From the NCBI RefSeq assembly GCF_015775515.1, contig NZ_CP065383.1, positions 1,550,001-1,614,000 on the forward strand: a DNA stretch of 64,000 nt, read 5' to 3'. A program made the position numbers and the translations under genes. The notes below the pieces were generated by a model. It saw only the letters and a program-made list of their open reading frames with translations, was not told where the DNA came from and did no database searches. This document shows positions 6,311-52,060 of the stretch, in pieces. Within the stretch, counting starts at the first letter, position 1; the number at the start of each line of letters is the position of its first letter. Source of the stretch: Atribacter laminatus. GTDB lineage: Bacteria; Atribacterota; Atribacteria; Atribacterales; Atribacteraceae.

Positions 6311-6342
6311 AAAGTGGGGAGTAAAAAATTACTCCCCACTTT
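6311..6342 (+). terminator. Perfect 14-bp hairpin between binding-protein and ATPase genes
   Basis: The arms AAAGTGGGGAGTAA (6311-6324) and TTACTCCCCACTTT (6329-6342) are exact reverse complements around an AAAA loop. It lies 19 bases before the ATPase start and has no long T tract, so partial termination or 3'-end protection of the binding-protein message is likely. Confidence 0.75.
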
Positions 6343-6361
6343 GATGAGAAAGGATTTTTTT

Positions 6362-7864
6362 ATGTCAACGCCGGTTTTAGAATGCCGTCAAATCTGTAAA
6401 TCTTTTGGTGGGGTACCCGTTTTAAACAATGTAGATTTTATTCTTGAGAAAGGTGAAATACACGCATTAGTTGGTCAGAATGGCGCCGGCAAATCAACTT
6501 TAATGAAAATTATTAACGGAGTCTATAACCGGGATAGTGGTGATATTTTAATCGAAGGGGAAGAACAGGTTTATAAATCTGCTCAAGAAGCGCGCAAGGC
6601 TGGAATTAGCATGGTGTTCCAAGATTTTAGCTTGGTGCCTACTCTGACAGTTGCCCAAAATATTTTTTTAGCTCGAGAATTATCAGGTGGACGTGTCGTA
6701 TTAGACGATCGAAGAATGGAGGAGATAACCCAAAAACTTCTTGATTCGATCGGAATCGATATTTCCATTCATCCCCGGGAAAATGTTGAAAATTTGAGCG
6801 TCGGCTCAAAACAATTAGTTGAAATAGCGAAAGCTCTTTCAACCGATTCAAAAATACTAATCTTCGATGAGCCCACAGCATCTCTCTCCCAAGCTGAAAT
6901 ATCTTCATTGTTTAGCGTTATTCAAAATTTAAAAAAGAAAGGGATTTCGATCATTTACATTTCCCATTATTTAAAAGATATTTTTAAGTTATGTGATTCG
7001 GTAACTGTTTTACGAGATGGAGTCAACGTTTTATCCCAACCGATTTCAGAAACATCATTAGAAAAAGTTATTGATGCCATGGTTGGGAAGAAAGTTGGAA
7101 ATAGGATTAGTTGGGAAAGAAGCCAGCGAGGTGGCGAAGAAAAACCGCTCCTATCGGTTCGAAACCTTTCTACTGATTCGATTCACCAAATCAGTTTTGA
7201 TCTTTGGCCTGGTGAGATAGTTGGTTTGGCTGGACTATTAGGAAGCGGACGTACCGAAATATTTAAAGCTCTTTTTGGCTTGGATCCTATAAAAAGTGGA
7301 GAAATATTTATTCAGGGTGAAAAATCAACTATTCTATCGGTTCCCGATGCTCTAAAGCACGGGCTGGGTTTGGTCCCAGAGGATCGACGAAATCAGGGTC
7401 TTATTATGGATTTTTCAATTAATGAAAATATCTTGCTTCCTCTAATGAACAAACTGACTCAGCTCATTTTAATCAATGATCAAAAAGGGAAAGAAATCAG
7501 TCAAAAATTTGTCAGTGATTTTAAAGTGAAATGTGATGGTATTGAACAACAGGTTCGGTATCTTTCCGGCGGTAATCAACAAAAAGTTGTCGTTGCTAAA
7601 AATGTGGCCAATCAACCAAAAATCGTTCTCCTTGATGATCCAACATTTGGAGTGGACATTCAATCGAAATGGGAAATTATGAATATAGTTAAAGAATTTG
7701 CCCGATTGGGGAACGGTGTTTTATTTATTTCTTCCGAGTTTGGAGAAATAGCCTCTTTCTGTGATCGGGTGTTGGTGGTTAAAAAAGGAGAGATAATTGA
7801 AACAATTGTTAATTGTAATGAACAAAGCCTTGATGAAGAAGCCCTCTTGAAGATGGTGCAGTAG
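6362..7864 (+). CDS. Ribose-type sugar ABC transporter, two-domain ATPase
   Basis: This 500-residue two-domain sugar ATPase has Walker A GQNGAGKS (residues 38-45), a modified first signature LSVGSKQ, Walker B ILIFDEPTASL, a second P-loop GLLGSGRT and second signature LSGGNQQK. The second Walker B reads IVLLDDPTFGVD: the catalytic glutamate is replaced by aspartate, unlike the other ATPases here. I place the start at ATG 6362, behind GAGAAAGGA; an in-frame GTG at 6314 lies inside the upstream hairpin and would add 16 unrelated residues. The partner permease lies about 1 kb downstream because a group II intron and repeats have been inserted between them. Confidence 0.92.
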   Translation: MSTPVLECRQICKSFGGVPVLNNVDFILEKGEIHALVGQNGAGKSTLMKIINGVYNRDSGDILIEGEEQVYKSAQEARKAGISMVFQDFSLVPTLTVAQNIFLARELSGGRVVLDDRRMEEITQKLLDSIGIDISIHPRENVENLSVGSKQLVEIAKALSTDSKILIFDEPTASLSQAEISSLFSVIQNLKKKGISIIYISHYLKDIFKLCDSVTVLRDGVNVLSQPISETSLEKVIDAMVGKKVGNRISWERSQRGGEEKPLLSVRNLSTDSIHQISFDLWPGEIVGLAGLLGSGRTEIFKALFGLDPIKSGEIFIQGEKSTILSVPDALKHGLGLVPEDRRNQGLIMDFSINENILLPLMNKLTQLILINDQKGKEISQKFVSDFKVKCDGIEQQVRYLSGGNQQKVVVAKNVANQPKIVLLDDPTFGVDIQSKWEIMNIVKEFARLGNGVLFISSEFGEIASFCDRVLVVKKGEIIETIVNCNEQSLDEEALLKMVQ

Positions 7865-7923
7865 GTTTTATTGGTTTTCAGATTGATTTAATTTTTTATT
7901 CATAATCCATGCTAAGTCATTAT

Positions 7924-7959
7924 TTAGTTCCTTCTCCCTTGATGGGAGAAGGCGAGGAT
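7924..7959 (+). repeat. Left half of dispersed repeat family A, with hairpin
   Basis: The block contains CTTCTCCC (7931-7938) and GGGAGAAG (7944-7951) as a perfect 8-bp hairpin and ends GGCGAGGAT. Related copies occur at about 20936-20985 and 51888-51935, and inverted near 40760-40800. In intact copies GAGGAT continues straight into GAGGGTGAAA; here that continuation only resumes at 8620, after the intron. Confidence 0.8.
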
Positions 7960-8619
7960 TTGTGCCCGGCATGGGCCTATTCTATAGGGTGAAAATCCCG
8001 AACGACGAAGGGAATCGTAGTCGTTAGCTCAAGGCAAGGGTGTCCACCGTGAGGTGGAATCTGAAGGAAGCCAGCGGCAAATCTCCGGCCTGAGGAACAC
8101 GAACCTCAAGCGAGGCTCTTGACAAGTGGATGAGCTTGCATCCCAAAGCGAAATCCTGATTCCCAAAGGTGTCAGGAGTACATGAGGCAGGTAGATGGAG
8201 AGACAGAATAGGCTCTTACCCGGGGAGGCCTGCTGGCCGGCCGGGCCATCCGGTAAGGGACATCATATTCAAAAGTGTCCGTGAACCAGCAGGAGTCAGC
8301 AGAGGCCATAGTACTTAAGAAAAAGGAAGGGCCAAACGAAAGGAATGGGAGTCACGTCATGAGTTCAGACCAAAAACACCGACAGCCGAATATCTCGAAT
8401 GAGAGCTTCCTCAAAGGGGAAACGGTGAATCCGTCTTCCTTCCGAGAAGTGCCGAGTTCCCGTCGTGCACCCCGACGCCAGCCTCCCAACGAAGCACTCG
8501 GTTGGTAAGTATAAAAGGCAAATACCAGAAGCTTCGGGTATCCTTTTGAACCGCCGTATACCGAACGGTACGTACGGTGGTGTGGGGGGACGGGGGTTAG
8601 TCGCCCCCTCCTACCCGGT
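7960..8619 (+). mobile_element. Group IIC intron lacking its maturase gene
   Basis: The RNA core of a bacterial group II intron of subclass C is present from domain I to VI. Visible landmarks are the 5' segment GTGCCCGGCATGGG, TAGGGTGAAAATCCCGAAC, CAAGGGTGTCC, GGAATCTGAAGGAAGCC, TGAGGAACACGAAC, ACCCGGGGAGG, the domain V hairpin at 8548-8584 (GAACCGCC...GGTGGTGTG around GAACGG) and a GC-rich domain VI ending CTACCCGGT. They match the Oceanobacillus-type IIC intron as I remember it. Domain IV is only about 225 bases, with no room for a reverse transcriptase of about 400 residues. The ORF at 8275-8508 overlaps the core and at best keeps a start fragment of the maturase. The first intron base is T where G is expected. 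The intron sits 8 bases after a hairpin, the usual IIC target. Confidence 0.9.
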
Positions 8620-8800
8620 GAGGGTGAAAGGTTGGATTTAGAAACAAGTTTTGTGTTTTAAATTGAACTTGAGGAAAATATCCAAATATCCCCCTCACCT
8701 GAATCCTCTCCCACCAGAGGAGAGGAAAAAAAGAGAAATAGGAGAAGGTCAGGATGAGAATCTGGTAAGCTCCATGTCATGACATGGAGCTGCATTAAAT
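8620..8800 (+). repeat. Dispersed repeat cluster after the intron
   Basis: This stretch holds the right end of repeat family A (GAGGGTGAAAG at 8620), a family B block (CCCCCTCACC..CCTCTCCCACCAGAGGAGAGG, about 8690-8728), another partial family A (GGAGAAGGTCAGGATGAG) and a palindrome TCCATGTCATGACATGGA near 8770-8787. No gene is visible between 7864 and 8909 apart from the intron. Confidence 0.7.
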
Positions 8801-8908
8801 AGGTATTGTATTTGTATCCCAACATTTTAAAAATATTTAATAGAGCTTGATTTAAAAAGAATGCTATTGGTTCAGAAAAGAAGAATATCTGAAGGAAGGA
8901 GATTGCTC

Positions 8909-9862
8909 TTGAAAAAAAGAAGTCAATCAAATCGAGCCATCAATACCAATGAATTTATAGTGTATATTGCCTTTTTAGCAATTTTTGTCTTTTTTTCTAT
9001 CGTTCTCAGAGGGCGGGGATTTCTCTCTTCGGAGAATTTAATGAACATTGCTCGTCAGACTGCCATGATTTCGGTTATGGCTGTTGGGATGACTTTTGTC
9101 TTGGCTGCTGGAGAAATTGATCTTTCGATCGGTTCTATTGTAGCGTTGGCGTCACTTACAACTGCATTAGCCCTCCGCCACAGCTCCTTATTGGTTGGAG
9201 TTATTACTGGGTTGGGTACCGGAGTTTTAATTGGTATGGTTAACGGTCTTTTTGTAGCTAAAATCGGAGTCCCCTCCTTTCTTGTCACCCTGGGAATGAC
9301 CGGAATTATTACCGGATTAGCCCGTTGGATTACGCAGCTTAAATCTATTCCGGTAACTAATAAAACCTATAATTTTATTTTTGGATCAGGAGATATCGGA
9401 CCGATATCAATTCTTTTTGTTTGGACAGTTGTTTTGCTCATTATGGGTCAAGTTGCCTTGAGGAAGACCAAATTTGGTCGTTATGTGTTGGCAACTGGTG
9501 GAAATAAAATATCTGCTCTTTATTCAGGAATCAATGTTGAAAGAATTAAATTTTCCGTTATGGTTTTAAATGGTGCCTTAGCAGCTTTGGCTGGAATGCT
9601 ATATGCTGGTAGACTTCATGGTGCTCGTTATACTTTAGGCGAAACTGATTTGATGACGGTTATAGCAGCAGTTATCATTGGAGGCACCAGCATGTCAGGA
9701 GGCCGGGGATCGGTAATCGGTTCCATCGTTGGTTCTCTTATAATGGGAATGATTAATAATGGATTGATATTGATGGGTTTATCAGTCGATCAACAAATGA
9801 TTTTCCGTGGATTGATTATTATTATTGCAGTTTCTTTGACCATGAGAGAAAAGAAAAAATAA
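8909..9862 (+). CDS. Ribose-type sugar ABC transporter permease
   Basis: This permease of about 317 residues belongs to the BPD_transp_2 family, with multiple membrane helices and the family motifs GEIDLSIGSIVALAS and AVIIGGTSMSGGRGS. I choose TTG 8909, six bases after AAGGAGA; an upstream in-frame ATG at 8861 has no ribosome site and would add a charged leader. It belongs with the binding protein at 5082 and ATPase at 6362, from which it is separated by the intron-repeat insertion. It must therefore be transcribed through the intron or have its own promoter; I see no strong promoter between 8620 and 8900. The gap to the next gene is 13 bases, so it is cotranscribed with the glycosidase-like gene. 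Confidence 0.9.
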   Translation: MKKRSQSNRAINTNEFIVYIAFLAIFVFFSIVLRGRGFLSSENLMNIARQTAMISVMAVGMTFVLAAGEIDLSIGSIVALASLTTALALRHSSLLVGVITGLGTGVLIGMVNGLFVAKIGVPSFLVTLGMTGIITGLARWITQLKSIPVTNKTYNFIFGSGDIGPISILFVWTVVLLIMGQVALRKTKFGRYVLATGGNKISALYSGINVERIKFSVMVLNGALAALAGMLYAGRLHGARYTLGETDLMTVIAAVIIGGTSMSGGRGSVIGSIVGSLIMGMINNGLILMGLSVDQQMIFRGLIIIIAVSLTMREKKK

Positions 9863-20739: not shown

Positions 20740-21120
20740 TTTTGAAAATATTGTGGGCTAAATATTTTCGATATCTCCTCAACGTCTTTTACACTCCACC
20801 TTTAATAAGGCGAGATTTGAAAAAATTCTAAGAGAATCGAATCCCTCTTAATCTCCCTTTATCTAAAAAGAGAGGAATGAAAAAGATTGAACTCATGAGA
20901 TTGCCACATCACTTCGTTCCTCACAATGACGAATCAGAGTTCCTTCTCCCTTAATGGGAGAAGGTGAGGATGAGGGTGAAAAGCCCAAGATTCGACATGC
21001 CCTGGCATGTCGCTACATTAATCGGGTGCAATAAATTGCGCTCCATCATTTTTTAATTCTTTTGTAGGGTCTTGATTTATCAAGCTCGCGGTTTTATGAA
21101 TCAAGTTAGATATCGTTTAT
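20740..21120. repeat. Block of dispersed palindromic repeats
   Basis: In order, this gap holds family F (GAATCCCTCTTAATCTCCC.., about 20840), family C (GAGATTGCCACATCACTTCG.., 20899), family A with its hairpin (20936-20985), family E (CGACATGCCCTGGCATGTCG, about 20993-21012), a GGGTGCAATAAATTGCGC palindrome (about 21021) and family G (TTGATTTATCAAGCTCGC, about 21071). No coding sequence is visible between 20679 and 21293. Confidence 0.75.
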
Positions 21121-39205: not shown

Positions 39206-39449
39206 GTTATATATTCTATCTTCTCCCTGCTTTCTAACAAGTTAGTTTTATCTTCTTTTTTTGCTCATTCTCTTTCCTGTATATAAAATACAATGAAAAG
39301 TCATGATTTTGTTTTATCGGAATCCTGAGCACTTACTTTTTTGTAAACCTTTTTAAAATTTAGAGGAAAACTTTTTTTAAAAAATCCTAAAGTATTTTGA
39401 TATTGTTCCGATAATTAATAAAGGACTGGAAATATATATTAGATATATA

Positions 39450-39535
39450 TATTAAAGGCAAACTCTCCGAAAGGGGAGGACGCAAAACCACGAACCTAAA
39501 GCACGAAAGTGCTACGGCAGTCGGGTTGCCGGATC
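39450..39535 (+). promoter_or_regulatory. c-di-GMP-I riboswitch aptamer (GEMM)
   Basis: The leader contains the c-di-GMP-I core in order: AAAGGCAAAC, a P2-type stem CTCTCC/GGGGAG with GAAA tetraloop, GACGCAAA, CCACGAACCTAAAG (the tetraloop receptor side), a GCAC-GAAA-GTGC hairpin, then ACGGCAGTCGGGTTGCCG. These match the conserved ligand-binding elements of the class. It controls the lipoprotein gene at 39613. Confidence 0.9.
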
Positions 39536-51404: not shown

Positions 51405-52060
51405 GGACAAACTCTTATGCTGCGTAGCAGCACCAGGTAAGGATGAAAACCCAAGATTCGACATGCCATGGCAGGTTGCTACAACAAAAATAAATTGTGG
51501 AGGCTTGATTTATCAAGCCCACAAATGAGTTTACAGGATTGAAGTTCATGTCACGTTATGGTGCCGGTTGAGGATGAAAAATAGTGTTATCCTCTCAGCC
51601 TGAATCTCTCCCACCGAGGGGTGAGAAAAAAGGTTCCCCCTTTAGAAAAGGGGGTAAGGGGGATTTGAGTTTTTTCCTGCTCTTTCATTGCGAGGAAGTC
51701 AACCGTTCTTTGGTTGGACGACGTGGCAATCTCTGCCACCCAGTTTGTCATTCTGAGGAGTCCGGTGTCTTCTCCCGGACGACGTGAGAATCTCATCTTT
51801 TTCAATTCCACAGTTCAATACATAATAAAAAATGAATCATGAGATTGCCACGACCTCAAAAAACCAGGTATCGCAATGACGACTCAAAGTTCCTTCTCCC
51901 TTGATGGGAGAAGGTGAGGATGAGGATGGAAGCTCTGGATGACGAATGAAAAGCACCCTCCCCGCCGTAAACGGCACCCCTCCAAGGAGGGGAATTGTTC
52001 AATATATTCCCCCATTGAGGGGGGATTTAAGGGGGGTGTACATTTCTCTTTTTTTGTTTA
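51405..52060. repeat. Block of dispersed palindromic repeats
   Basis: In order: family H (TATGCTGCGTAGCAGCACC, about 51417), family E (CGACATGCCATGGCAGGTTG, about 51459), family G (TTGATTTATCAAGCCCAC, about 51508), family B (CTGAATCTCTCCCACCGAG.., about 51600), a CCCCCTTTAGAAAAGGGGG piece (about 51637), family C/D pieces (51686-51800), family C (51840-51880), family A (51888-51935) and family F (51955-52035). No gene is visible. Confidence 0.75.

Follow-up and report, generated by a model that had tools for sequence, protein, structure and literature searches.

A probable lineage of group IIC introns with altered terminal bases at hairpin-bearing repeats of Atribacter laminatus

In a 64,000-nucleotide stretch of the Atribacter laminatus genome (contig NZ_CP065383.1, positions 1,550,001 to 1,614,000, hereafter the window), one copy of a dispersed intergenic repeat is split by 660 nt, which raises the questions of what the insert is, how it recognized its landing site and whether its unusual terminal bases carry any meaning. 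The reading that we favour, to which we would give a probability of roughly 0.78, is that positions 7960–8619 represent a non-autonomous copy from a mobile lineage of group IIC introns that targets repeat hairpins through EBS1 and EBS3 and in which a U1·G-penultimate contact replaces the usual G1·A-penultimate one. The intron and repeat features given below for the window lie on the forward strand.

A preliminary description of the window had proposed a 660-base group IIC intron between the halves of an interrupted repeat, and this is borne out by three Rfam group II matches, all exceeding their gathering scores, to the domain 1 core (RF02001; 8043–8214, 128.2 bits), the domain 2/3 region (RF01998; 8261–8332, 51.0 bits) and domains 5 and 6 (RF00029; 8549–8619, 43.7 bits). 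The last of these matches stops exactly at 8619, the 3′ border of the insert (copy 1), and the branch-point A, predicted by analogy, falls at 8613. The intron has no ORF of its own and carries a remnant of a reverse transcriptase (RT) gene at 8359–8508, comprising the first ∼ 49 codons with the remainder deleted. The remnant was recognized by its alignment to the RT of a second copy (88% identity over residues 1–50), and a Pfam search of 8359–8508 gave no match.

The borders of copy 1 can be read from the repeat that hosts it. The 5′ half of this repeat (repeat A; 5′ exon, 7924–7959) contains a 9-bp stem (7930–7938/7944–7952) with a calculated folding energy of −16.7 kcal/mol, followed by a 7-nt spacer, CGAGGAT, that ends at the insertion point; the 3′ half (3′ exon) occupies 8620–8632. 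The preliminary description had correctly placed a hairpin before the insertion, but its figures of an 8-bp stem and an 8-nt gap have to be amended. It had also reported uninterrupted repeat copies near 20936 and 51888, and these are indeed found at 20942–20978 and 51892–51928 (junction equivalents 20971/20972 and 51921/51922), where they read GGTGAGGAT^GAGGGTG and GGTGAGGAT^GAGGATG, respectively. A genome-wide search returned dozens of matches to only the first 36 bases of repeat A, ending at query position 36 and representing empty repeats. Empty repeats with the expected junction, on whose existence the earlier interpretation had staked itself, are thus plentiful: TGAGGAT^GAGGGTG was seen at at least 36 places, in addition to close variants, in the stretches of the genome that were read, and all such counts, which come from searches and from stretches of the genome, are lower bounds. 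No empty repeat A copy in these stretches had the junction GGATTTGAGG, with an extra TT, and the extra junction bases therefore belong to the insert. As had been claimed, removal of 7960–8619 restores repeat A exactly; the predicted spliced junction is GGCGAGGAT|GAGGGTG.

The exon–intron pairings are in register with the same borders. IBS1 (GGAT, 7956–7959) forms four of four Watson–Crick pairs with EBS1 (AUCC, 8140–8143), and EBS3 (C8181) pairs with IBS3 (G8620). Both EBS columns were identified by setting the intron against 76 relatives. The EBS1 position is confirmed by its pairing with IBS1 at 3–4 of 4 bases in most of them, and the EBS3 column, with A in 67 of the 76, covaries with the first base of the 3′ exon (A–T in 56 cases, T–A in 3, C–G in 3 and G–C in 1, with 7 mismatched). 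Column 396 (intron position 245) was rejected as EBS3, since 3′ exon covariation places EBS3 at position 222. The two pairings provide independent support for the proposed borders of copy 1.

In the 3.10 Mb genome (one contig), only one further intron of this kind was found by searching, namely copy 2 (C1:1260648–1262528), which is full length and encodes an intact RT of 469 aa. Its host, repeat B, is distinct from repeat A and reads TTCCCCCTTTAGCAAAGGGGGTTAGGGG^GATTTG; an empty repeat B twin follows downstream after a few hundred bases, and most readable repeat B copies have the five-G junction. The border of copy 2 could also be drawn one base upstream, giving the exon TTAGGG and an intron beginning with GUCGUG. 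Such a border would bring the EBS1 pairing to 4/4 and keep G1, with one extra base, but it requires a four-G empty site, of which few were seen among the readable repeat B copies; empty sites, spacing and parsimony all speak for the border as given here. In a sister species (G002) there is an intact intron copy, whose RT is 88% identical to that of copy 2, located after a third hairpin (repeat C; GGATTCGCAAAGCGAATCC-TCAGGAT^). On the 5′ side this copy (contig C432, L080) is flanked by sequence matching repeat C copies, on the 3′ side by sequence matching repeat A tails. No single place with both a repeat C 5′ flank and a repeat A 3′ flank was found in the sister genome, and the mixed flanks suggest either that intron copies have recombined or that the assembly is mis-joined. 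A further genome, G004, retains an intron remnant with a repeat B tail after it. The spacer of the sister species that is syntenic to the copy 1 locus is short and has neither repeat nor intron; this comparison rests on G002, since the contigs of G003, G004 and G005 either break off at that point or have a different spacer. Repeats A, B and C are grouped in composite blocks, which are themselves duplicated beside copy 2 (L079, 3040–3800).

The first and penultimate bases rank among the most conserved positions in group II introns, and the contact between them presumably has a spliceosomal parallel. In the structure of the Eubacterium rectale IIC ribonucleoprotein, this pair (G1–A637) positions the last base (PMC10190682), and the first–penultimate contact has also been named in work on RmInt1 (PMC4238363). 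All three copies of the present lineage with intact ends have U at position 1 (UUGUG, at 7960–7964 in copy 1, or UCGUG, rather than GUGYG) and G as the penultimate base (8618 in copy 1, within CCCGGU), whereas the relatives have G1 in 75 of 75 readable rows (73 of them starting with GT) and a penultimate A in 76 of 77. The 5′ end, UUGUGCCCGGCAUGG in copy 1 and the sister species and UCGUGCCC in copy 2, departs at its first base from the published class C consensus, 5′ GUNYGCCNRGCAUGG and CCUACYCGAU 3′ (PMC4028801), and the 3′ end, CCUACCCGGU in all three copies, departs from it as well. These consensus ends are traits and not the sole definition of class C, and on its sequence the lineage is a variant of group IIC. 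Among IIC introns of viral contigs, all recognizable cases start with GT or GC, and CGAT ends were found in 30 of 30; the few other end letters in that sample belong to weak matches that resemble coding sequence. A pattern search for introns lacking G1 in four genomes of the phylum of G055 found none.

With the first and the penultimate base both substituted, both partners of one contact have been replaced, and a natural swap of G·A for U·G appears to be the best reading of these ends. With only three copies from two species, the change counts as a single evolutionary event. Two other near-invariant positions have changed in all three copies too, namely position 36 (G to A; 7995 in copy 1, G in 76 of 76 relatives) and position 245 (A to C; 8204, A in 76 of 76), so that the end changes may belong to a wider drift. 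The terminal bases would then be passenger decay in dying introns, devoid of compensatory meaning, a reading that also draws on the lost ORF of copy 1 and the small number of copies but that we hold to be unlikely in view of the state of the RT and of the RNA core. The RTs of copy 2 and the sister species are both intact 469-aa ORFs that differ mostly at silent sites (dN 0.061, dS 0.471, dN/dS 0.13), which indicates purifying selection and speaks for recent function of the lineage, although splicing itself is not thereby proved. Despite a dS of 0.47, the RNA core differs by only ∼ 4.5% (18 of 402 positions) between copy 2 and the sister copy; in the automatic three-copy alignment domains 5–6 of copy 1 are misplaced, and the difference counts for its 3′ part were left out. 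A paired A-to-G/T-to-C change at positions 46 and 62 was seen by inspection in one stem. The lineage has kept the catalytic domain 5 unaltered, together with the predicted branch A and the last U. The copy 2 RT consists of RVT_1 and GIIM only (TIGR04416), with the endonuclease domain absent, and its best structure match is the GsI-IIC RT, the nearest solved relative; the RTs of copy 2 and the sister species form a single long-stemmed clade with support of 100/100.

As to how the landing site is chosen, the three intact-ended copies sit after different hairpins (stems of 8–9 bp), each 7 nt past the stem, a distance that is inside the 5–9 nt range of the relatives. The expectation that other copies would occupy an identical position in one repeat family was not borne out, each copy lying in a different family. 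Dispersed palindromic repeats do serve as landing sites (A, B and, on the 5′ side of the sister copy, C), but the notion that they would have spread the intron into many intergenic spots finds no support, with two copies in the genome against dozens of empty repeats. EBS1 follows the site: it is AUCC facing GGAT in copy 1 and the sister species and CCCU facing GGGG (or AGGG) in copy 2. Thus, three of its four bases differ between copies 1 and 2 and likewise between copy 2 and the sister copy, compared with 18 of 402 core positions overall for the latter pair (P = 3e-4). EBS3 is C throughout, and the C–G pair with the 3′ exon is confined, among the relatives compared, to this lineage. Read from the sequences, EBS1 differs between the copies so as to suit different repeat families, and the target, as we reconstruct it, is a hairpin plus an EBS1/EBS3 match over at least three repeat families, not one repeat family. 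The earlier interpretation had the right kind of target in mind but defined it by the wrong unit, a single repeat family instead of hairpin plus EBS match, and its author had missed both the changed first and penultimate bases and the co-changed EBS1 and EBS3.

An ordinary terminator-seeking IIC intron, its target preference unchanged, might in principle have landed by chance in repeats that bear hairpins: IIC introns, as in the E. rectale ribonucleoprotein, read a DNA stem-loop together with very short pairings (PMC10190682), and the repeats supply stem-loops in abundance. This is improbable, however, as the terminator-type T-rich tail is absent from all three sites, the 7 nt preceding the insertion containing 1–2 T versus 3–6 in 65 relatives, and both EBS1 and EBS3 have been altered to suit the repeats, EBS1 differently in copy 2. 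Finally, a 5′ end at GUGCCC (7962), where the GUG resembles a GUGYG start and TT/TC would be exonic, was rejected as highly implausible, given that none of the empty repeats read has the two extra bases, that EBS1 pairing would drop from 4/4 to 1/4 and that the class C pattern, GUNYG followed by CC, sets position 1 at 7960 (PMC4028801).

The sequences thus show a lineage whose members insert 7 nt past the hairpins of dispersed intergenic repeats, at sites that match EBS1 (4 nt) and EBS3 (1 nt). On the favoured reading, the ORF-less copy 1 would have been served in trans by the RT of the full-length copy, and the ribonucleoprotein would reverse-splice into single-stranded hairpin DNA, like other IIC introns, with U1·G-penultimate presumably substituting for the G1·A-penultimate contact, by which the 3′ end is held in place in the lariat. 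A more ambitious version, to which we assign somewhat less than even odds, is that a living IIC lineage swapped G1·A for U1·G as a compensatory change, rewrote EBS1 and EBS3, colonises hairpin repeats and re-aims between repeat families by mutation of EBS1. If so, the swap would be a natural example of compensation at a contact with a spliceosome counterpart, and a lineage under selection with both end bases replaced would be a direct test of what that contact requires. Changing five bases would let IIC introns leave terminators for other structured targets, and ends of this kind would probably be overlooked or wrongly placed by standard boundary profiles, which are based on GUNYG and CGAU.

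The lineage resembles the terminator-inserting IIC (class C) introns of the B.h.I1, O.i., GsI-IIC and E.r. type in its Rfam domains, its endonuclease-free class C RT, the lengths of EBS1 (4 nt) and EBS3 (1 nt) and the placement of the insert a few nt beyond a DNA hairpin. It differs from them in its sites, which are dispersed palindromic repeats without a T-tract, in its EBS1 (AUCC or CCCU) and EBS3 (C) and in its ends, U1 and a penultimate G in place of GUNYG and CGAU. With the IIC-attC introns of integrons it shares a DNA target that is a structured non-terminator repeat (PMC4424553), but its sites belong to three unrelated families of dispersed chromosomal repeats and, judged by this repeat membership, would not be attC sites. 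Natural departures from GUGYG...AY are also found in fungal rRNA IIB1 introns, C.te.I1 and RmInt1, which has a penultimate C (PMC4424553, PMC4238363). Those introns either have 5′ insertions or are reported with an altered penultimate base but no altered first base, whereas the present lineage substitutes both contact partners with its length unchanged. Repeated palindromes are likewise the targets of REP-associated IS elements and group II introns, one of which, in Pseudomonas putida, is listed at REP sequences for 2 of 9 copies (PMC1525189). In contrast to the REP-associated elements, for this lineage the base pairs that define the target have been resolved and vary between repeat families.

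Within the same order, IIC introns from another family (G011; L047, L048) start with GTGTG and follow a shared hairpin, TTCGAATATTTGTAAAAGCTAAATATTCGAA, with no T-tract; we count them as a second instance of IIC introns within a repeat. Copy 1 occupies, in sense orientation, the spacer between genes named by inspection as the ATPase and permease of a sugar-type ABC transporter (window 6314–9862), and its splicing could therefore affect readthrough. Elsewhere in the window, a c-di-GMP-I riboswitch aptamer is found at 39447–39533 (89 bits).
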